Shown here: positions 1-32,424 of the stretch, piece by piece
Layout of the letters: the number at the start of each line of letters is the position of its first letter
How positions within the stretch are numbered: the stretch's first letter is position 1
From: Thermodesulfatator sp.
GTDB taxonomy: Bacteria > Desulfobacterota > Thermodesulfobacteria > Thermodesulfobacteriales > Thermodesulfobacteriaceae
Assembly (NCBI GenBank): GCA_027064165.1
Contig: JAMOQE010000053.1
Coordinates: forward strand, 1-36,167
Reading direction: 5' to 3'
Length of the DNA stretch: 36,167 bases
Notes under the pieces: generated by a model
Told to the model about the DNA's origin: nothing
What the model saw: only the letters and a program-made list of their open reading frames with translations
The model's database searches: none
Made by a program: the position numbers and the translations under genes

Positions 1-94
1 AAAATGGTAAAAAATAGTTCCAGCCTATAGGTTTGACGCAAAATTAGGAATTGAAATTTTATTAAAGTCAGTTATAATCTATGTTTTGACAACG
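1..94 (+). promoter_or_regulatory. Leader of CRISPR array 1 (left edge cut by window)
   Basis: This AT-rich stretch lies directly before the first repeat and matches 8950-9043 before array 2 with only three differences that I count (two near 44-45, one near 68). Such conservation between two arrays marks it as a true CRISPR leader, the site where new spacers enter and where the precursor crRNA starts. It contains AGGAATTGAAAT at 46-57, an exact copy of the last 12 bases of the repeat. The degenerate terminal repeat at the other end of the array supports this side being the leader side. The leader may extend left of base 1. Confidence 0.88.
51..78 (+). promoter_or_regulatory. Sigma-70-like promoter for CRISPR array 1
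   Basis: TTGAAA at 51-56 and TATAAT at 73-78 are separated by 16 bases, so transcription would start about 10 bases before the first repeat. Both hexamers and the spacing are identical in the leader of array 2. The -35 hexamer falls inside the repeat-like AGGAATTGAAAT segment. Confidence 0.7.
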
Positions 95-1527
95 GTTTGC
101 TAGCCTACCTTTGAGGAATTGAAATTTTTCCAGAAGTGAATATCGCTCATAGAATTTACAAGTTTGCTAGCCTACCTTTGAGGAATTGAAATTTCAAAAA
201 TGATTCAGCAAAGATATAACAGAGCAGTGTTTGCTAGCCTACCTTTGAGGAATTGAAATCCAACAGGCACACTATCAATTGCCTTCTTTAGTGTCGTTTG
301 CTAGCCTACCTTTGAGGAATTGAAATCCCTTCCAAATGCAATTTTTCTAATCACATGGCAATGTTTGCTAGCCTACCTTTGAGGAATTGAAATAATTCTG
401 TGAGGATACTACAGTAGCCAATGTAATGGTTTGCTAGCCTACCTTTGAGGAATTGAAATACATAAACATTGTCTTCAATTTCATTGTGAAGCCCTGTTTG
501 CTAGCCTACCTTTGAGGAATTGAAATAAGTCTTTGAAATTATTATTCTTTTTTTCTTATCAGGTTTGCTAGCCTACCTTTGAGGAATTGAAATGTTTCCA
601 AGCGTAACAGTTCCAAGCTGAGTTGTTAAGTTTGCTAGCCTACCTTTGAGGAATTGAAATTGCTTTTATCCTCCTTAATCCTCAATAAAGTAATCTGTTT
701 GCTAGCCTACCTTTGAGGAATTGAAATAAATTCTTAATTGATCAGGATTACTTATTGCATTTGGTTTGCTAGCCTACCTTTGAGGAATTGAAACATATCA
801 ATGAGGATGACATTTGGGTCTTTAATAAGACGTTGCTAGCCTACCTTTGAGGAATTGAAACCAGGAAGTGAAAAAAAGAAAATTTGTATCTCCTGATGTT
901 GCTAGCCTACCTTTGAGGAATTGAAATAGGAAATTCCCTCCTACAAATACCTTTATGCTCTCCGTTTGCTAGCCTACCTTTGAGGAATTGAAATCCACAA
1001 ACCTTTTCTACCTCTTTTACCTCCAAAAGGGTTTGCTAGCCTACCTTTGAGGAATTGAAATGTTTTACGATAAGAATATTCAGTATGAAGATTACCTGTT
1101 TGCTAGCCTACCTTTGAGGAATTGAAATTTATACTTTTTAATTTTTCCCTTTCCTCTTTTGTCTTGTTTGCTAGCCTACCTTTGAGGAATTGAAATAGGG
1201 GACAAGCCCTTCACAGAAGCTTCTTCTGTACTAGTTTGCTAGCCTACCTTTGAGGAATTGAAACAATGTAAAATCTTCAGCGATAACAATACCTTTTACT
1301 GTTGCTAGCCTACCTTTGAGGAATTGAAACGATAAAGGAAAAACCTACAGAATTGCGGAACCAGGTTGCTAGCCTACCTTTGAGGAATTGAAATTCCTTT
1401 TTCCTTCTTCAATCTTTGTTAATTTTTCCTGTTTGCTAGCCTACCTTTGAGGAATTGAAATACCTTTACTTTGTTGCAGCTAGCAGGGGGCGTTATGTTT
1501 GCCAGCCTACCTTTGAGGAATTGAAAG
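95..1527 (+). CRISPR. CRISPR array 1: 22 repeats, 21 spacers
   Basis: Repeats recur every 64-68 bases. The invariant core is 28 bases, starting TTGCTAGCCTACC and ending GAGGAATTGAAA. Most copies read GTTT at the 5' end and finish AAAT (31 bases); some read GTT and finish AAAC (30 bases), and several are hybrids. Spacers are 34-37 bases, mostly 36. Repeats start at 95, 162, 229, 296, 363, 429, 496, 563, 630, 697, 764, 832, 898, 964, 1031, 1098, 1166, 1234, 1301, 1365, 1431 and 1497. The last copy is degenerate (GCCAG for GCTAG, final G), as expected at the leader-distal end. Repeat type (ATTGAAA tail, about 30 bases) is the kind used by type I-A, I-B and III systems; no cas gene is in the window, so the subtype cannot be set. 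Confidence 0.98.
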
Positions 1528-4251: not shown

Positions 4252-5112
4252 ATGTATAATTTTGAATTTGGTTCTAAAACTGCCAAAGGAGGATTTGCTA
4301 ATGAAAAAGCAATATGTAAAAAATTTAATAATTGGAAAGAAGATAAGGAAGCAAGACTATGGCTTAAGATAATGGGATATAACCCAGATGAAATAGATTA
4401 TGTTAAAGCTGTTCAGCTCCCTACAAGAATAAAAAAAGTAGATATTAAAAAATTTGGATTTAGTGAAAAAGAATATAAAGAATTAATGCGATTTAAAAAA
4501 GCAGATGTTCAAGTTCAAATTAGACTTGTCATTCAAGTGAATAATGTTTTAAAAGTTGAAAATTTGTCTTTAAAAAAGGCAAACTCTGACGCAGATTATA
4601 ATCAAGTGGATAAAAGATGGGTTGATTCTTATAAAGAAATGTGGTATTTTGACGACGAAATAGCAGTAGCATTAAAACTATTTACTGGAGAACTAAAACC
4701 TTCTTCACATCCAGAAATGTTAAAAGTAACTATTTCAAATTTAAAGGATTCAAGAAGGGTATTTTTAACAGAACTTAAAGACGAAATAGTTAAAAAGATA
4801 ATTTCATTTTTTACTGAAAATAAAATTCTCGTAGTAAGTGATATTTTAAAAGGTAGAGGTGGATTTGCTGCAGATTGGATGTTAGTAACAAGATATAATA
4901 AACAAAATAATACTACAACCTGGATTTTAAAGGATATAAATACTGCAATGAATTTTTTTGGACAAGGAGATGTGAGAGTTTCTCCAAGAGGAAGTCTTTA
5001 CATTGGAAGAATAACAATGCAGAGAAAAGGAGGCACTCCAGACCCTACTAAACTGCAATTTAAAATAAAACCTTGTGAACTTTTTAAGTTAGAAAGTGGT
5101 GAAGAAATATGA
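4252..5112 (+). CDS. HinP1I-like type II restriction endonuclease (predicted GCGC)
   Basis: The 286-residue protein resembles HinP1I (G^CGC) from end to end, by my recollection of that enzyme. Shared blocks are FGSKTAKGGFANEK near the start, NWKED, MGYNPDEI, VKAV, DKRWVDSYKEMW (120-131), FTGEL, DILKGRGGFAADW (197-209), SPRGSLYIGRITMQRKGG (244-261) and LQFKIKP. The likely catalytic Asp is D85 in ADVQVQ and the Lys is K108 in LSLK; where I recall Q-x-K in HinP1I this protein has S106-L-K108. It is longer than HinP1I, with an insertion near residues 60-80. Its TGA overlaps the methyltransferase ATG (ATGA), so the pair is translationally coupled. AAAGGAAAAGAG provides the ribosome-binding site. 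Composition is much more AT-rich than the core genes, which suggests recent transfer. The specificity is inferred. Confidence 0.88.
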   Translation: MYNFEFGSKTAKGGFANEKAICKKFNNWKEDKEARLWLKIMGYNPDEIDYVKAVQLPTRIKKVDIKKFGFSEKEYKELMRFKKADVQVQIRLVIQVNNVLKVENLSLKKANSDADYNQVDKRWVDSYKEMWYFDDEIAVALKLFTGELKPSSHPEMLKVTISNLKDSRRVFLTELKDEIVKKIISFFTENKILVVSDILKGRGGFAADWMLVTRYNKQNNTTTWILKDINTAMNFFGQGDVRVSPRGSLYIGRITMQRKGGTPDPTKLQFKIKPCELFKLESGEEI

Positions 5113-6938
5113 GAGAAATAATAATTTTAGCAAAACTCAAATTTGATTTAAGAGACCCAGATGAAGCTTATTTCGCACAGCATGAGATAGAAGCAATCCT
5201 GGGCACACAGGTAAAACCTGTAAAAACAATCCCTGCGCTTTTTAAGGATTATCCATTTAATAAATTAACTGAAGAAATAATTCACATAATTTCAAGACAT
5301 CTTTATCTTGGTGAAGTACAAGGCTATTTAGCAAAGGTAAGTCTTTCTAACTTTGCTGATATTGTTAATAAATTAATTTTTCAACCTGCTTTTTTTAAAG
5401 AAATATATTTAATAACTGAGGAGAGAGGAAAAGAAACTGAACTAAAACATAGCATATATTCTGCTAAAAAAGATTTATATCAAATATTTAAGATTGAACT
5501 TGAGAACGGAAAAAAGATATTTGTGATAAGATTATTACCTTTACAGACTTTATTTGAATATGTAACAGATGTTAAAAAACTTCCTGCAGTAGCAATTACA
5601 CCAAAAAATAAAAAAAACTGGAATAGTTATTTTACAGAAAAAGAAAAAGGAATAGAGAAAGGATTGAATGAATTACTAAACCATATAAGAAGTAACCACC
5701 GTCGTGCCCCTCACTTTGGATTAGGAAAACAACATATTGGTGACTTCATAGACTGGGCTTCCACAGATTTAAGAAAGCCTTTTTTACATTATTTACATAA
5801 ATACAAAGGTAAAGGGGATCCTCGTATATCCCGAGCTTTGATTAATTTGTTAAAAGTAAATAAAGGAGATACTATATTAGACCCTTTTGCTGGTTCAGGA
5901 GCTTTTATTGCAGATGCCCCTACAATGGGGATTAATGCTATAGGTATTGAAATATTAAATATAGGTAAACTTATAGCAGAAGTAAAATGTGACTTAAACT
6001 ACAATCTTAAAAATTTAAGAAAAGAAGTAATAAATCTATTTAGTAGTATCCATTATTATGATGTTGATAATTTATTTAATTTTTCCATAAAGATTAAGCT
6101 AAAAGAGTTAAAAGAAAAACTAAAGATACTTACAGAAGCAAGCAGGACTTTTGAAAATGTTCTTCCACACCTGCAAAAAATAATTTATTTAAAAAATAAA
6201 ATAGAAGCCATTCAAGACGAAAAAATCAAAAATTTTTTTCTTGTTTTACTTAGTCAAAAAATTATTGAATTTTCTGAAAAAAAGAGAACTAATAACTTTA
6301 TAACTTCTTTTCAAAGTTATGTTGAAGATAGATACCTTACGCTCTATGCAACTTTAAAGCTGGCAGAAAAGCTAAATGTGAGTATAACTGATGGAAAAGT
6401 AAAAATAATAAAAGGCGATTCTACGCAGATGAACTTTATGGAAGACAATTCTGTAGATGGAATTCTTACTTCTCCTCCCTACTTTGATGCCTTGGATTAT
6501 ATTGGAAACAATAAAATTCCTATAATTATATTGGGTTTTGACGAAGATTTAAAACTTGGTTCAACGAAAGAATATTATTCCAGATTCAGGGAGTATAATT
6601 TAGAATTACCAGCCTCTTCTATTAATCTCATTACACTTTTGAAGAAATCAAGGCGAGGAATGAAAGCACAGATAGTAGAGGATTATCTAAAAATGATGAA
6701 ATTGTCTTTTAAAGAATGTTATAGAGTACTTAAACTGGAAAAATTTTATGCTATGGTAGTCAGTAAATATCATACCTGGACTATAAATGGAAAAGAAGAA
6801 AGAATAGAAACTTCAAAAGTGCTGGCAGACCTCGGAACATCCGAAGGATTTAAACTGGTTGAGATAATTCAGCATGGATTATCAAAAGCAGATAAAGGCA
6901 AAATAAATGTGGAAGATATACTGTTATTTCAAAAATAA
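5109..6938 (+). CDS. SPPY-type DNA amino-methyltransferase (partner of the endonuclease), TRM11-like layout
   Basis: This 609-residue protein carries the SAM-binding motif I DPFAGSGAF at 258-266 and catalytic motif IV TSPPYFDALDY at 454-464. SPPY is the form typical of N4-cytosine methyltransferases. It starts at the ATGA overlap with the endonuclease, which supports a role in protecting the same site. The order is unusual: about 230 residues precede motif I, including SRHLYLGEVQGY (62-73) and DWASTDLRKPF (215-225) before the Rossmann fold, a layout like TRM11/TrmG10 tRNA methyltransferases. About 190 mostly helical residues separate motifs I and IV, and a Lys-rich segment after SPPY could recognise DNA. 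N4-methylcytosine is the usual cytosine mark in thermophiles because m5C deaminates to T. Codon use is very AT-rich, like the endonuclease. Confidence 0.87.
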   Translation: MREIIILAKLKFDLRDPDEAYFAQHEIEAILGTQVKPVKTIPALFKDYPFNKLTEEIIHIISRHLYLGEVQGYLAKVSLSNFADIVNKLIFQPAFFKEIYLITEERGKETELKHSIYSAKKDLYQIFKIELENGKKIFVIRLLPLQTLFEYVTDVKKLPAVAITPKNKKNWNSYFTEKEKGIEKGLNELLNHIRSNHRRAPHFGLGKQHIGDFIDWASTDLRKPFLHYLHKYKGKGDPRISRALINLLKVNKGDTILDPFAGSGAFIADAPTMGINAIGIEILNIGKLIAEVKCDLNYNLKNLRKEVINLFSSIHYYDVDNLFNFSIKIKLKELKEKLKILTEASRTFENVLPHLQKIIYLKNKIEAIQDEKIKNFFLVLLSQKIIEFSEKKRTNNFITSFQSYVEDRYLTLYATLKLAEKLNVSITDGKVKIIKGDSTQMNFMEDNSVDGILTSPPYFDALDYIGNNKIPIIILGFDEDLKLGSTKEYYSRFREYNLELPASSINLITLLKKSRRGMKAQIVEDYLKMMKLSFKECYRVLKLEKFYAMVVSKYHTWTINGKEERIETSKVLADLGTSEGFKLVEIIQHGLSKADKGKINVEDILLFQK

Positions 6939-7480: not shown

Positions 7481-8047
7481 ATGGCAATTTCCTTTTTGCC
7501 TTCTCATAATGAAGAAATAAAAAAAGCAAAAGAAATCAAGGAGTTTCTTTTATCGCTAAAGGAGCTGCTTTTTGAGAAGTATCAAGAGCTAAAAAGAAAG
7601 CCCCTCACCCTTGACGGAATTAACGAAGATGAAAGGCTAAATGCAAGAAAAATCCTTCCAGACTTAAAGTACTTTGGTGAGAGCCTTAACGAGTATTTTA
7701 AAGAGCCTGAGGCAGGTAAGAAAGTAAAACTTGAGGTAAGTTTGAAAATTTTCCTTGAAACTGTTGAAAATGTATTAAGTAAAATTTATACTGAACAAGG
7801 AAAAGAAGCAGTGCTCAGTCTTTTGCGGGAACTTCTCGTTGCCTTTGATGAATTTATCTCAGCAGTTGAGAGGTATTTAAAAGGAGAAAGCGTTAACCTG
7901 CAAGTAGAAATAAAAGGGGCTGAGTTTGTAAGGTGGTTAAATTACGGAGAAATACCTTCTCCAAAAAGCAGGCAAGAAAAAAACGGGCTTTCAAAGTGGC
8001 TCTGTTTCCTTTTAGGAGTATGGCTTGGCACAAGCTTAAATGATTGA
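7481..8047 (+). CDS. Unknown helical protein with hydrophobic C-terminal tail
   Basis: The 188-residue product is almost wholly alpha-helical by composition, with coiled-coil-like stretches (KEIKEFLLSLKELLFEKYQEL, about 18-38, is one) and charged Lys/Glu patterns. The C-terminus carries a short hydrophobic segment (WLCFLLGVWLGTSL, about 173-186) long enough to touch or enter a membrane. No family is recognised. It ends 14 bases before the HIRAN-domain gene, so the two very likely form an operon. The ATG at 7481 has only a weak upstream GGG as ribosome-binding site. Base composition returns here to that of the host-like genes. Confidence 0.65.
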   Translation: MAISFLPSHNEEIKKAKEIKEFLLSLKELLFEKYQELKRKPLTLDGINEDERLNARKILPDLKYFGESLNEYFKEPEAGKKVKLEVSLKIFLETVENVLSKIYTEQGKEAVLSLLRELLVAFDEFISAVERYLKGESVNLQVEIKGAEFVRWLNYGEIPSPKSRQEKNGLSKWLCFLLGVWLGTSLND

Positions 8048-8061
8048 AAGGAGGAAAAAAT

Positions 8062-8835
8062 ATGCGTTTTGGTATAAAACTTGGAGAAAAGAGAATAGGA
8101 CTTGAGGAAAAGAGCCCCACTGGAGTGCTTCTTTTTTCAGAGTTTTCAGAAGAAGGGCAAAGGGAAGTGCTTTCCCTTGACGAAATAAAAAGAGAAATTG
8201 AAATCTGGGTAGATTCAAGAAGAAAGTATCCTCTTTCTGCAAGCAACTGGAGGCTTGTTTTAAAATTAGCTAAAATTCTTGGCTTTTCTTCCGCAGGAGT
8301 TCTTCTTTTTGCAGGAAGGGAGCTTTTTAGCATAGAAGAGGGAAAACATGAAATCTTGCTTGTGCGAGAGATTTTTAATGAGTTTTTTGATGAAGAAAGA
8401 TGGATAAATCTCCTTGTTGAAGCTACTGTGGGAGAGTTTAAGCGTCCATCTCTTAAAAGCCCTTTTAATTTGTTATTTGACAGAGAACCAGATGAGCTTG
8501 CAGAAGAGTTTTTTAAAACTGCTTCTTGCGTATTTACAAGGATTGTAGGATTTTCCTACAGGGAGGATAACTTTGTGAACGAGGAAGATGAGCTTATTTT
8601 AAAGCCTGGGGATAGAATATTTTTAGTAAGAGAGCCAGAAAATGAGCACGATCCAAGGGCAATAGCAGTTTTGTGGAAAAATGGAGAACTTTTGGGATAT
8701 CTTAGACGAACTATTGCAAAGCATTTATCTATTCGTCTTGACAAGGGAGAGATTATGACTGGAGAAATTACTGCAATTTTAAGCCCGAGAAGAGAGCCTG
8801 ATGAGAGAGTGTTTATAAAATTTTGGAAAAAGTGA
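8062..8835 (+). CDS. HIRAN-domain protein
   Basis: The 257-residue protein has a HIRAN domain (PF08797) at about residues 157-245: TRIVGFSYRE, LKPGDRIFLVREPENEHDP, AIAVLWKNGELLGYL. HIRAN domains bind DNA ends and damaged DNA; in eukaryotes they are fused to Rad5/HLTF helicases, while bacterial copies are often free-standing. Residues 1-155 form an unrecognised helical region. The ATG at 8062 is chosen because AAAGGAGG lies at 8047-8054, seven bases upstream; a TTG at 8044 would begin within that site. It follows the unknown helical gene by 14 bases and precedes the leader of array 2 by about 115 bases. A role in DNA repair or defence is inferred from the domain and location. Confidence 0.85.
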   Translation: MRFGIKLGEKRIGLEEKSPTGVLLFSEFSEEGQREVLSLDEIKREIEIWVDSRRKYPLSASNWRLVLKLAKILGFSSAGVLLFAGRELFSIEEGKHEILLVREIFNEFFDEERWINLLVEATVGEFKRPSLKSPFNLLFDREPDELAEEFFKTASCVFTRIVGFSYREDNFVNEEDELILKPGDRIFLVREPENEHDPRAIAVLWKNGELLGYLRRTIAKHLSIRLDKGEIMTGEITAILSPRREPDERVFIKFWKK

Positions 8836-8949: not shown

Positions 8950-9046
8950 AAAATGGTAAAAAATAGTTCCAGCCTATAGGTTTGACGCAAAAACAGGAAT
9001 TGAAATTTTATTAAACTCAGTTATAATCTATGTTTTGACAACGGGG
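8950..9046 (+). promoter_or_regulatory. Leader of CRISPR array 2
   Basis: The segment repeats 1-94 of the window nearly base for base and ends in ACGGG before the first GTTG-type repeat, where leader 1 ends in ACG before a GTTT-type repeat. It also holds AGGAATTGAAAT (8995-9006), the tail of the repeat. Similarity begins at base 1 of the window, so the true left limit of the shared segment cannot be seen in copy 1. Confidence 0.88.
9000..9027 (+). promoter_or_regulatory. Sigma-70-like promoter for CRISPR array 2
   Basis: TTGAAA at 9000-9005 and TATAAT at 9022-9027 are 16 bases apart, exactly as in leader 1. Transcription would start shortly before the first repeat at 9047. Confidence 0.7.
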
Positions 9047-9738
9047 GTTGCTAGCCTACCTTTGAGGAATTGAAACAAGCATAAAGCCTTCCAGCTTGCA
9101 CCGAAGAAATTTGGTTGCTAGCCTACCTTTGAGGAATTGAAACACAAAAAAAGGGAAATTATCATATTTGCCTTCGTGTGGGTTGCTAGCCTACCTTTGA
9201 GGAATTGAAACCCCTATACCCCTCGCAAAACAATCATAAATAACATGAGGTTGCTAGCCTACCTTTGAGGAATTGAAACTTATCAAACACTATAGTAACT
9301 CTCTTTCCTGCACCAGGTTGCTAGCCTACCTTTGAGGAATTGAAACTCTTCAGGGGCCAGGTCTAGATCGACAACAACTATGTTGCTAGCCTACCTTTGA
9401 GGAATTGAAACATTGTGTTTGTAAATGTGTTTAATCCTGAAGAGCAGGTTGCTAGCCTACCTTTGAGGAATTGAAACGATAATCTTTTCAGGCATAGGCA
9501 CCCTCCAACGGGTTGCTAGCCTACCTTTGAGGAATTGAAACGGCTCAAACTTTACACACCTGATGGGCAAAAAACTTGTTGCTAGCCTACCTTTGAGGAA
9601 TTGAAACGAGGTAATTGGATGGGAGGTGAAGACTCCGCTGGGGTTGCTAGCCTACCTTTGAGGAATTGAAACGGCTCAAACTTTACACACCTGATGGGCA
9701 AAAAACTTGTTGCTAGCCTACCTTTGAGGAATTGAAAT
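9047..9738 (+). CRISPR. CRISPR array 2: 11 repeats, 10 spacers
   Basis: Repeats start at 9047, 9114, 9182, 9250, 9317, 9382, 9448, 9512, 9578, 9643 and 9709. They share the 28-base core of array 1 but are uniformly of the 30-base form (GTT at the start, AAAC at the end); only the last ends AAAT. Spacers are 34-38 bases. Spacers 8 (9542-9577) and 10 (9673-9708) are identical. There is no degenerate repeat at the far end. Same strand and same leader as array 1, so both could be processed by one Cas6; no cas gene is nearby. Several spacers, for example 4, 5 and 6, can be read as open coding sequence. Confidence 0.98.
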
Positions 9739-9918: not shown

Positions 9919-10161
9919 ATGTGCATTCTCATTTTCTTAATTATTGGTTTTATTATAGGCTGGCTATTGCGAAAAAAACGCTATAAGTTAAATTTGACTT
10001 TATCAGTAAATTTACTTTTATTTTTGCTCATATTTCTTATGGGTGTGGAAGTTGGGAAAATAAAAGTAAATGCTTTCTGGATTTTAGGAACATCTATTTT
10101 GTTTGCAATCACCACCATAACAGGAAGTCTTTTTATTTCCTTTTTAATAAAAAAAGACTAA
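9919..10161 (+). CDS. LysO-type lysine exporter, N-terminal subunit
   Basis: This 80-residue protein has three hydrophobic helices and matches the N-terminal part of the LysO (DUF340) family, which exports lysine across the inner membrane. The second half holds IFLMGVEVGKIK, a motif that recurs as IFLIGIELGQSF in the next gene, in line with the internal repeat of LysO. In Escherichia coli LysO is one chain of about 300 residues; here the next gene starts two bases after this stop, with proper start and no overlap. Split arrangements occur in the family, so I treat this as a functional two-gene form rather than a frameshift. No clear ribosome-binding site is visible. Confidence 0.75.
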   Translation: MCILIFLIIGFIIGWLLRKKRYKLNLTLSVNLLLFLLIFLMGVEVGKIKVNAFWILGTSILFAITTITGSLFISFLIKKD

Positions 10162-10163
10162 AT

Positions 10164-10745
10164 ATGATTCTTTCGGTTTGCATTGTATTAATGTTGATTG
10201 CTGGAATTTTTGCAGGATATTTTTATGCACCTGATTTGGGCAAATTTTACGAAATTATTCTTTATTTAATAATCTTTTTAATAGGCATAGAGCTTGGACA
10301 GAGCTTTAAACTTACAGAAATAAGGAAACTTGGAATCCTTGCCATTAAACTGCCATTAGCTACCATGACTGGCTCTATGCTGGGTGGAGTAACTACTGCC
10401 CTGCTGCTTAAAATGAAACTTAAATGGGGGCTTGCTATTGGTGCAGGGTGTGGTTGGTATAGCCTTACCGGTCCTTTAATAGCAAAATATTCCCCTATCT
10501 ATGGTACACTTGGATTTCTGGCAAATATTGGCAGAGAATTAATAGCTATTCTTTTGTACCCTTTACTATTAAAAATTACAAAAAAAGAAATAATCATTTC
10601 CATAGGTGGTGCAACGACAATGGATACTACCTTACCCATTATAACAAAGTTAGGAGGCCCTGAACTCGCATTGATAGCCTTTATTCATGGATTTGTGTTG
10701 ACAATACTGATACCTATTGTGCTCTCCTTTATTGTTCAGCTTTAA
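10164..10745 (+). CDS. lysO: LysO-type lysine exporter, C-terminal subunit
   Basis: The 193-residue protein is a multi-helix membrane protein with the conserved LysO/DUF340 motifs FLIGIELGQ (about 37-45), GAGCGWYSLTGPLI (about 93-106), GFLANIGRE and GGATTMDTTLPII (about 150-162). The conserved acidic residues within membrane segments (E in GIELG, E in GRE, D in TMD) are kept. Start two bases after the small N-terminal gene suggests translational coupling and a two-part transporter. Likely physiological role is lysine efflux. The last 96 bases are covered on the other strand by the tail of the unknown gene at 10650-11291. Confidence 0.88.
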   Translation: MILSVCIVLMLIAGIFAGYFYAPDLGKFYEIILYLIIFLIGIELGQSFKLTEIRKLGILAIKLPLATMTGSMLGGVTTALLLKMKLKWGLAIGAGCGWYSLTGPLIAKYSPIYGTLGFLANIGRELIAILLYPLLLKITKKEIIISIGGATTMDTTLPIITKLGGPELALIAFIHGFVLTILIPIVLSFIVQL

Positions 10746-29751: not shown

Positions 29752-30031
29752 TATAAAGTGTAGCCTTAAACTGAGGAGCTAAGTGCAAACACACTGTTTT
29801 AAAGGATGGAATCCTTACCTCTTCCCCTGTCTTCAGGTTTCTACCAACTTTTTCCTTGGTAGTATGGGGGATAAACACACCAAACCTTACTATTTTTACC
29901 TTTTCCCCAAGCTCAAGTGCTCTTTTAATTTCTTCCAGAAGTTCATCTATAATCCTCAAAATCATTCTCTGAGAAAAGCCCATTTGCTCGTGAATCTTCT
30001 TTGCCAGATCCTTTTTAGTAATGGTCTTCAT
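29735..30031 (-). CDS. ihfA: HU/IHF-family DNA-bending protein (IHF alpha-like)
   Basis: IHF bends DNA sharply as a dimer. The 98-residue protein has the usual KKDLAKKIHEQMGFSQ start, VRFGVFIPHTTKEKVGRN (48-65) and GEEVRIPSF after the tip. The position right after pheT points to ihfA. At the tip of the DNA-binding arm HU and IHF have RNPxTG, where Pro intercalates into DNA; here it reads RNLKTG with L66. It also has a longer C-terminal tail. It overlaps pheT by four bases. Whether it still kinks DNA in the same way is uncertain. Confidence 0.85.
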   Translation of the reverse strand: MKTITKKDLAKKIHEQMGFSQRMILRIIDELLEEIKRALELGEKVKIVRFGVFIPHTTKEKVGRNLKTGEEVRIPSFKTVCLHLAPQFKATLYNDEEG

Positions 30032-32424
30032 CTTGGTCTTGCTCCAAAGTGCTCAAATATTTTCCTTGCAAGCTCTTCCTGAACCTGATTTACCTCTTCA
30101 TCTTTAAGCGTCCTATCCTTTGCCCTGTACCAAAATCTAAGGCTGATACTCTTTTCACCCTCTGGAATAGGAGGCCCTTCGTAAATCTTTATACATTTTA
30201 CCTCCTCAAGCCAGGGCACCTCAAGAGACTTTATGTATTTAAAAATTTCTCCAATTTTAAGCTCTTTCTTTACAATACAGGTAACATCCCTGAAAGTGGA
30301 AGGATATTTGGGAGGTTTTTTCACCTCCACCTTTTCCCAGGCATCTTTTAAAGGCTCAAGCAAAGCCTCAAGATCTACCTCTGCCACAAATACCACTTCT
30401 TTAAGATCAAAGGCTTTAAGCACAAGATTCTTTACTCCTCCGGCAAAGCCCACCTTTTTCTCTCCCAGATAAAGATCAAAGGACAGCCCTCTTTTAAGAA
30501 AAGGCTCCTCTGAATAAGGACGAAGCTCTACCTCAAGTTTGAGTGCAGAAAATAGCTCCTCAAGCACTCCTTTTAGATCAAAGATGTCAAATCTGGCATC
30601 CTCTGCATACCACTCGTCTTTATCCCTGTACCCCATCATCAAAATGCCTAAGTGATAAGGCTCATAAGCAAGCACATCATCCGTGGGGAAAAATACCTTG
30701 CCCAGTTCAAAGGCCTTTAAGCCTGAGACTTCTCTGAAATAGTTAATTCTTGCAGTTTCAATAAGCCCTGGCACAAGGCTTGTTCTCATAACAGATTGAT
30801 TCACAGAAAGGGGATTCGCCAGCTCAAGTACCTTAAGCCGCCTATCTCCATCTTTTAGCATAAGGGCTTCTATCCAGGAAGGATCTATAAAACTGTAATT
30901 CACCACTTCGTAAAATCCAAGCCCGGAAAGAATCTCCCTCACCTTTTGAAGCACTTTTATCTCAAAAAGCGGTGCCTCTGCATAAAGCTCAGCTACAGGA
31001 AAAGTGGTGGGAATTTTTTCGTACCCATAAATCCTTGCGATCTCTTCTATCAAGTCTTCTGGAATTTTGAGATCCTGCCTGTAAGAAAAAGGAATAAATT
31101 CAACCCCCTCTTTCTCCTCTTTTACTTTCCCTACTCTTGAAAGATACTCTTTAACCTCTTCCTTATTAAGCTCAAAACCAAGATACTGGTTTACCCTTTC
31201 AAAAGACACATAAATTTTGGGAGCTTTGTATGGACGGGGATAAACATCTATCACCCTTGATACTTCCTTTGCCCCTGCTTCCTTTTTAAGAAGCTCACAC
31301 GCCCTTAAAAGCCCCTTTAAAACCCCTTCAGGATCCACACACCTTTCAAACCTATAAGAACTGTCCGTGGAAACTTTAAGCCTTTGAGAGGTGCGTCTTA
31401 TCCTCTTGGGATTAAACCATGCTGCTTCAAGAAAAACTTCTTTTGTGCCTTCTCTAACCCCTGTTTCCTCCCCTCCCATTATACCGGCAAGGGCAACAGG
31501 CCTCTTTGCATCTGCAATCACAAGATCCTCAGAAGAAAGCTCCCTCACAACGCCATCAAGCATAAGAAGTTTTTCCCCTTCCCTTGCCTTCCTCACAATG
31601 ATTTTTCTTCCCTCAAGTGTCTCCCAGTCAAAGGCATGAAGGGGCTGACCAAGCTCAAGCATTACATAGTTTGTTATATCCACCACATTATTTATGGGCC
31701 TCTGCCCACAAAGCCAGAGCCTCTTTTGTATATAAAAAGGGCTTTCCCTAACCTCTATGCCTTTAAGGAGCCTACCCGTGTATCTAAAGCACCCGTCCTC
31801 GTCCTCTATTTTTACCACCTCATTTAGCTCAAAGCCCTCCCCTTCTTCAAAACTGGGTTCTCTTAGCTCCCACTTAGTAAGGGCATAAAGCTCCCTTGCA
31901 GCACCAAGTATGGATAATGCATCTCCCCTGTTCGGAGTTATCGCAAGCTCAAGCACAGGCTCTACTACTTTAAGCACCTCATAAATTGACACACCAGGAG
32001 GTGTATCAGGAGGAAAAGAAAGAAGTTTATCTTTTTCTAAACCAAGCCCTGCCTCATAAGGAGAAAGAAACATCCCATAAGACTTAAACCCTTTTACCAC
32101 CTTTTCTTCCACCTTCTCACCCGAAAAAACCATACTTCCGGGTTTAACAGCACCAAGCACAAGCCCAGGAGCCACCTGATCTTTAGCAGTGGTAAGAAGA
32201 GTAAACTCCTGTCTGCCATCAGTCACCCTGCAGAGGGCAAGCTCTTTTAGCTTCTCCGGAAAGCTCACTTCAAGGACTTTTACCGTGATAAGCTCTCCCA
32301 GCTCCTCATAAGGATCAAAGACCTCCTCCACCTCAATGCCACCCATGGTAAGAATCTCTGCTACTTCCTCGGCAGAGGCTTTAACGTCTATAAATTCTTT
32401 CAGCCAGCTCAAAGGCACTCGCAT
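30028..32424 (-). CDS. pheT: Phenylalanine-tRNA ligase beta subunit
   Basis: PheT, with PheS, charges tRNA-Phe; the beta chain has the editing site. The 798-residue protein has an N-terminal tRNA-binding OB domain (about 40-150), the B3/B4 editing region (FRYTGRLLKG, NNVVDITNYVMLELGQPLHAFD), the B5 domain (about 400-470), the catalytic-like core (LARIYGYEKIPTT form here IARIYGYEKIPTTFP) and the C-terminal ferredoxin-like anticodon-binding domain (KYPSTFRDVTCIVKKEL). It follows pheS by 15 bases. Length is standard. Confidence 0.97.
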   Translation of the reverse strand: MRVPLSWLKEFIDVKASAEEVAEILTMGGIEVEEVFDPYEELGELITVKVLEVSFPEKLKELALCRVTDGRQEFTLLTTAKDQVAPGLVLGAVKPGSMVFSGEKVEEKVVKGFKSYGMFLSPYEAGLGLEKDKLLSFPPDTPPGVSIYEVLKVVEPVLELAITPNRGDALSILGAARELYALTKWELREPSFEEGEGFELNEVVKIEDEDGCFRYTGRLLKGIEVRESPFYIQKRLWLCGQRPINNVVDITNYVMLELGQPLHAFDWETLEGRKIIVRKAREGEKLLMLDGVVRELSSEDLVIADAKRPVALAGIMGGEETGVREGTKEVFLEAAWFNPKRIRRTSQRLKVSTDSSYRFERCVDPEGVLKGLLRACELLKKEAGAKEVSRVIDVYPRPYKAPKIYVSFERVNQYLGFELNKEEVKEYLSRVGKVKEEKEGVEFIPFSYRQDLKIPEDLIEEIARIYGYEKIPTTFPVAELYAEAPLFEIKVLQKVREILSGLGFYEVVNYSFIDPSWIEALMLKDGDRRLKVLELANPLSVNQSVMRTSLVPGLIETARINYFREVSGLKAFELGKVFFPTDDVLAYEPYHLGILMMGYRDKDEWYAEDARFDIFDLKGVLEELFSALKLEVELRPYSEEPFLKRGLSFDLYLGEKKVGFAGGVKNLVLKAFDLKEVVFVAEVDLEALLEPLKDAWEKVEVKKPPKYPSTFRDVTCIVKKELKIGEIFKYIKSLEVPWLEEVKCIKIYEGPPIPEGEKSISLRFWYRAKDRTLKDEEVNQVQEELARKIFEHFGARPR

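Follow-up and report, generated by a model that had tools for sequence, protein, structure and literature searches.

Two adjacent genes, termed A and B here, lie just upstream of a CRISPR array in a 36,167-nt stretch of DNA from Thermodesulfatator sp. (the window, which is contig C53; the whole genome spans 1.49 Mb and 81 contigs). The question raised by this locus was whether the two genes form a defense pair of their own, or whether gene B, which encodes a HIRAN protein, belongs with CRISPR-Cas. A previous reading of the sequence alone had favored the pair, as a sensor of DNA ends with a membrane-linked partner. The features of the locus are as follows.

96..1527, + strand: CRISPR array 1, 22 repeats of the array 2 class, 2 of them exact; leader at 1-95
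4252-5112, + strand: HinP1I-type restriction enzyme (Pfam R-HINP1I, 6.2e-59; PADLOC REase_II)
5109-6938, + strand: DNA methyltransferase (Pfam N6_N4_Mtase, 3.9e-12; PADLOC MTase_II)
7481..8047, + strand: gene A, ORF of 188 aa, predicted to be all-helical with a weakly hydrophobic C-terminal tail
8048..8054, + strand: AAGGAGG ribosome-binding site of gene B, read from the sequence
8062..8835, + strand: gene B, ORF of 257 aa, two-part HIRAN protein of a CRISPR-linked family
8062..8520, + strand: N-terminal part of gene B, residues 1-153, from the structure model
8527..8826, + strand: HIRAN domain of gene B, residues 156-255 (Pfam), with the invariant N194..D197 pair
8950..9046, + strand: array 2 leader, in which 8950-9044 agrees with window 1-95 at 92 of 95 positions
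9047..9738, + strand: CRISPR array 2, 11 repeats, 10 of which are exactly GTTGCTAGCCTACCTTTGAGGAATTGAAAC

The stop codon of gene A ends at 8047 and the ATG of gene B is at 8062, and the gap between these two plus-strand genes is therefore 14 bases. AAGGAGG lies inside it. This confirmed the spacing and the strong ribosome-binding site given by the sequence-only reading. The ATG at 8062 was taken as the start of gene B; the mechanical ORF list has an upstream TTG at 8044.

The 95-base stretches before the two arrays agree at 92 of 95 positions, so genes A and B sit just upstream of a true leader, as had been claimed, with 114 bases between the end of gene B and the leader of array 2. The restriction enzyme and the methyltransferase (4252..6938) share the island between both arrays with genes A and B, and an AAA-ATPase-like/PDDEXK protein is also encoded upstream of the two genes (Pfam).

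The arrays, with their near-identical leaders, bracket a defense island of 7.4 kb. Variant repeats make up 20 of the 22 in array 1, and exact repeats 10 of the 11 in array 2. A repeat-spacer-repeat unit is present twice in array 2 (9510-9606 and 9641-9737), identical over 97 bases. Elsewhere in the window, a LysO lysine exporter (9919-10745) is split into adjacent ORFs of 80 and 193 aa; both match Lys_export, the first slightly below the cut-off. A tRNA-Ser (gct) called by ARAGORN at 30302-30393 falls within a same-strand open frame of 798 aa (30028-32424), and one of these two may be wrong.

None of the 126 ORFs of at least 50 aa in the window matched any of 28 cas and WYL reference proteins. 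The arrays with their leaders are the only CRISPR link to gene B in the window. Within the genome, the repeat (allowing up to 3 mismatches) was confined to contig C53. Similar repeats, 2-3 mismatches off, were present in two of 29 other family genomes. In one of them (L129), the array lies next to an operon of type I-B, in which Cas1b and Cas7/Cst2 score above their cut-offs and Cas5b slightly below its own. In the other (L128), cas3 and cas6 are present together with a Cas5b slightly short of its cut-off; the matches are weaker than in L129, and the L128 leader aligns to the window leader at 68.9%. Type I-B cas genes accompany the repeat class of the window arrays in L129 and, more weakly, in L128.

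The sole Cas1 match of the genome is on contig C70 (L099, G000:C70, 4973-5632). This short ORF encodes a shortened Cas4-Cas1 fusion, in which a Cas4-like start is followed by residues 181-324 of the Cas1b model, and the first 180 model positions are absent. The uptake of new spacers may therefore be dead in this genome. Its cas3 gene runs off the contig edge. This and the shortened fusion suggested that the local CRISPR system may have decayed, and we make no claim about the activity of gene B in this strain.

The HIRAN protein encoded by gene B

Pfam placed HIRAN (PF08797) at residues 156-255 of gene B (E 5e-14; 52.3 bits against a gathering cut-off of 24.7). This was expected from the sequence-only reading, in which HIRAN was attached to about 155 other residues. 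The N-terminal part gave no convincing Pfam match in seven members of the family at E values up to 1. Among solved sequences, it gave only two matches, both to designed proteins. Fold searches produced nothing useful for it; the best VIA row had Z 6.5 over residues 62-149.

A model of gene B from six sequences (pLDDT 85.8, pTM 0.86) consisted of five strands, then helices to residue 153, and then the HIRAN fold.

The closest solved fold to the HIRAN part was lp_0118 (3k2y; Z 13.0, 1.9 A over 94 residues). HLTF HIRAN chains gave Z 8.0-10.8 (8.0-10.7 for the DNA-bound HLTF HIRAN), and Rad5 gave Z 9.0-9.2. The HIRAN domain of HLTF binds DNA 3' ends. N194 and D197 form a pair that is invariant across 22 aligned HIRAN proteins, and this pair lines up with the N..D pair of HLTF (E 0.13 with the single sequence and 2.8e-7 with the family profile). 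These are two conserved pocket residues, and gene B is predicted to bind DNA 3' ends. HIRAN domains of the B type form one clade (support 0.974).

A two-part protein ending in HIRAN could also be an antitoxin, with an N-terminal domain that binds a partner and HIRAN behind it, controlling a toxin. HipN putative antitoxins consist of a HipS-like domain and a C-terminal HIRAN, according to the available part of PMC8262856, and the PADLOC PDC-M03B models matched gene B with a best value of 3.6e-9. These matches, however, spanned the HIRAN part only, for which reason the PDC-M03B identity was dropped. The same model also matched HIRAN proteins in 23 of 395 genomes. HipA-type Pfam domains were absent from the N-terminal part of seven B members, and HipA families from the seven island genes scanned. 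We consider it very unlikely that gene B is a HipN-type antitoxin or a PDC-M03B relative. As to a HipS-like N-terminal domain, Pfam gave no such family in the seven members, and HipA/HipS did not occur among the 50 rows listed in the fold searches.

Genes adjoining B relatives and other HIRAN proteins

The gene B family was opened by a Pfam HIRAN search of 395 phylum genomes plus an alignment scan of species genomes. HIRAN was matched in 26 of the 395. Three of the 25 other HIRAN carriers (G285, G260 and G215, the same loci as L051, L052 and L053) resembled gene B over most of its length by phmmer, and their alignment, run as a pattern scan over the species-genome collection, added L054, L055 (G498), L057 and L058 (G419). 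When 340 and 46 genomes, additional or overlapping, were searched with profiles, several of these carriers were returned again, plus a degenerate copy in G456.

The family comprises eight genomes, including the window genome, with the G456 copy counted separately. L056 (a duplicate of the G215/L053 contig) and L059 and G734 (HIRAN part only) were left out of the counts, as were G307 and G085, which gave marginal A matches. The copy in L058 is frame-merged, and that in L055 is cut by the contig end. The family is rare, and every locus came from one phylum.

Single-sequence queries matched the window alone (gene A or B against relatives and plasmids, and gene B against genome_contigs and viral_contigs), and both genes were absent from 59 other genomes of the relatives search. 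In the phage and viral collections, the B queries matched HIRAN domains only, and the gene A queries that were run matched nothing. The single plasmid HIRAN match (Pelagibacterium) had no annotated cas gene within 10 kb on either side in an incomplete gene table.

Gene B relatives adjoin core cas genes. B precedes cas3g of a type I-G operon in L051/G285 (gap of 369 nt), cas3 of I-E operons in L052/G260 (7 nt) and L053/G215 (283 nt), and cas1-cas2-cas3 in L054 (21 nt). In L058 (9140-10483), the B-type HIRAN frame is continuous with a cas3-like fragment, whose match of 33.6 bits falls below the model cut-off. This merged frame could be a natural fusion, a frameshift or an assembly error.

Five copies, intact or frame-merged, have sequence on the side where a cas neighbor would show, and in all five B was directly before cas3 or cas1. 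The subtypes at these five loci were I-E twice, I-G once, and two untyped. L055 stops at the contig edge after B, and L057 starts near the contig edge before B. The G456 copy (HIRAN part only, with one internal stop) showed no match to cas genes within the 6 kb examined, and counting it makes the figure 5 of 6. Placement in or directly beside cas operons, as expected of a type I CRISPR-Cas accessory, is therefore seen in the relatives but not in the window.

A WYL gene is the neighbor of B in L053, L054 and L055, and also in L052 (split) and L058 (partial); in L051 a WYL gene lies at the far end of the operon. Those of L055 and L051 matched PADLOC CRISPR WYL models, that of L055 being the only B-adjacent WYL gene scanned. 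The adjacency of B relatives to core cas genes suggested that the B family is an overlooked helper of CRISPR immunity.

Alternatively, B might be a general DNA-repair protein that travels with defense islands by chance. In eukaryotes, HLTF and Rad5 are HIRAN proteins that act at stalled forks, gene B of the window lies between a restriction-modification system and a CRISPR array, and for some HIRAN genes of the phylum the flanks read contained neither a cas nor a WYL match. On the other hand, four operons, representing at least two subtypes, have B on the same strand as the cas genes at gaps of 7 to 369 nt, which makes a chance association unlikely. We regard the repair protein as quite improbable.

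The flanks of the 22 other HIRAN carriers were read, 18 at up to about 10 kb per side where the contig allowed and four at 1.5 kb. A cas3 gene was found in the gene cluster of 10 of the 26 HIRAN carriers, three of B type and seven with a short HIRAN protein (L134, L138 and L140, type I-C; L136 and L144, I-G; L142, with I-E genes; L139, untyped). HIRAN directly adjoins cas3 in L134, L136, L139, L140 and L142, with overlapping reading frames in the cases of L134 and L140. HIRAN and cas3 are separated by a WYL gene in L138, and in L144 HIRAN is first in the operon and cas3 third. For nine short HIRAN genes, the adjacent gene encodes a WYL protein. No cas3 was found around 15 of the 25 other HIRAN carriers, with four read at 1.5 kb per side, several on short contigs, and a reference set that lacks other CRISPR types.

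Across at least three subtypes (I-C, I-E and I-G), cas operons are repeatedly headed by a gene predicted to encode a DNA-end-binding protein. The link to defense is tighter than the sequence-only reading had guessed, in that B homologues and other HIRAN proteins of the phylum are encoded directly beside type I cas genes.

Eleven short HIRAN proteins (L130, L131, L133-L136, L138-L140, L142 and L144) carry RRxF, which we take to be a Tat-type motif. All 11 have WYL and/or cas genes adjacent. A hydrophobic stretch follows the motif in most of them and is absent in L144. These assignments come from a motif scan, not a signal predictor, and RRxF was placed inside the mechanical ORF in L136, L138, L139, L142 and L144. 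The motif-free short HIRAN proteins (L132, L137, L141 and L143) showed neither WYL nor cas genes, two of them being at contig ends. RRxF was found neither in gene B nor in the six long relatives examined, a set outside which L058 falls.

Judging from the sequences, the RRxF forms are possibly a membrane-linked class of CRISPR accessories. If these N-termini are true signals for export or anchoring, they would point to a CRISPR step at the membrane, which would be unexpected. The membrane idea of the sequence-only reading may thus survive in a different form, in 11 short HIRAN proteins with a putative Tat-type N-terminal motif of their own.

A bolder proposal is that HIRAN proteins are CRISPR adaptors at the envelope, held there by Tat export, by a tail anchor or, in the case of B, through gene A. 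They would pass phage 3' ends to Cas3 or Cas1-Cas2, and WYL would switch cas on. Such modules would catch the free 3' end of phage DNA during entry. We regard this as a long shot.

Gene A and its union with gene B

Of five models of gene A, the best had a mean pLDDT of 69 (46-56 in the others) and showed six helices in the stretch from residue 9 to residue 155, which fits the helical partner of the sequence-only reading. The tail was not resolved in the model. Pfam gave weak matches only, all under cut-offs (best 0.0099), and searches of folds and solved sequences gave nothing useful (best Foldseek E 0.046).

In L057, a 221-aa A-like gene overlaps the end of B by 8 bases, in the reverse order to the window. 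BLASTP between gene A and this protein was not significant (E 0.11). The L057 protein as query gave six matches in the 395 genomes, and five of these relatives were read (L109-L113). A central RPFPxGLE-like motif is common to most A relatives. Four of the six members of the family (L057, L111, L112 and L113, not L109 and L110) end in F-x-x-G-x-W, and gene A has a similar ending.

Alignment of gene A with the six-member profile (L057 and L109-L113) by hhalign scored 36.9 (P 4.2e-5, residues 113-184), against 23.5 for the best of 119 real-ORF decoys and 17.8 for the best of 30 shuffles. An hmmsearch of the same profile on gene A gave 1.3 bits, which was not significant and was below several shuffles. 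From these comparisons, gene A is probably a remote member of a small family that is partly in defense islands; our confidence in the membership is moderate because hhalign alone recovered it.

The A relative in L112 follows a WYL regulator, and that in L113 (8971-9510) is in an island of type I restriction, Mrr and ZacB-like genes. Those in L111 and L057 are near RlaP nucleotidyltransferase genes. No defense gene was recognized around those in L109 and L110.

The sequence-only reading had the tail of gene A touch the membrane. This is only plausible: the F-x-x-G-x-W ending recurs in four of the relatives, but the tail is short and weakly hydrophobic, with a peak hydropathy of just 1.39 in a 15-residue window.

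An A-like gene adjoins B in two of eight genomes (the window and L057). In a profile search of 2,086 ORFs from 29 HIRAN/CRISPR loci, some of them overlapping, the L057 copy was the only A-like gene; the six-member profile could miss very remote copies, because it missed gene A of the window. The L055 contig stops right after B, which limits the count there. None of the five other A relatives read was among the 26 HIRAN carriers. Conservation of the pair across genomes was not observed: most close homologues of B had no recognizable partner beside them, the outcome that the sequence-only reading had named as refuting its idea. Because an A-like gene was found at so few B loci, A and B are best regarded as genes that join occasionally and do not form a fixed system.

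These results bear on the idea of a self-contained abortive pair, in which B would sense DNA ends, A would attack or permeabilize the membrane, and CRISPR would be a mere neighbor. The same-strand genes with their 14-base gap, the overlapping genes in L057, the defense contexts of the A relatives in L112 (WYL) and L113 (type I restriction, Mrr and ZacB), and the tail motif common to most of these relatives are all consistent with it. However, the rest of the B homologues read yielded no A-like gene, B homologues adjoin cas genes instead, none of the five other A relatives read carries HIRAN, and the tail of gene A is weak as a membrane segment. We judge such a pair unlikely. The defense layout of the sequence-only reading holds in that the HIRAN protein is tied to defense loci; a fixed unit of end sensor and membrane partner found no support in that form.

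Proposed role of gene B and comparison with known systems

We favor, with a probability of about 0.55, gene B as a type I CRISPR-Cas accessory that binds DNA 3' ends, and gene A as a separate helical protein of defense islands. Gene B would belong to a rare family of two-part HIRAN proteins with an accessory role in type I CRISPR-Cas, whose genes usually lie immediately before cas3 or cas1 and next to a WYL regulator.

Cas3 generates DNA 3' ends during target degradation, and Cas1-Cas2 captures fragments with ends. The HIRAN domain of B would hold single-stranded DNA by its 3' end, whether that end arises from Cas3 cutting or belongs to the invading DNA, and docking to Cas3 or Cas1-Cas2 may fall to the N-terminal part. 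B could in this way channel or guard the ends, leading to target destruction or spacer capture. A role in guarding, handing over or limiting ends would suit an end-binding protein whose gene immediately precedes cas3 or cas1. If gene A acts with B, it might tether B to the membrane or serve as its effector. Type I systems have to locate, cut and sample the ends of foreign DNA; how they hold and deliver these ends is not fully understood, and a gene for a putative end-binding protein is a testable candidate.

HIRAN beside cas genes was not described in the literature searched, among the matches listed, and a prior mention is possible. No paper in the library searched contained the words 'HIRAN' and 'cas3' together, and the available parts of PMC8262856, PMC4012209, PMC11090510, PMC11706625 and PMC12599258 had no HIRAN beside cas genes. 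The linkage of WYL to CRISPR is published (PMC4012209, available part). WYL genes lie next to B in L052-L055 and L058, and a HIRAN partner is absent from that part of the PMC4012209 account.

HIRAN has been described as a partner of HipA-type kinases in the available part of PMC8262856. HipN, as presented there, and PADLOC PDC-M03B resemble B in being two-part with a C-terminal HIRAN. B differs from them in having no kinase partner among the genes scanned, a Pfam-silent N-terminal part, and linkage to cas genes.

The stand-alone HIRAN protein lp_0118 of Lactobacillus plantarum (3k2y), the closest solved fold, is a single domain of about 100 residues, whereas B is two-part. With HLTF and Rad5 (PF08797), B shares the HIRAN fold by model and, in the case of HLTF, the aligned N..D pair. 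In contrast to these proteins, B has no helicase or RING; it carries instead a 153-residue N-terminal part, and its relatives are encoded beside cas genes.
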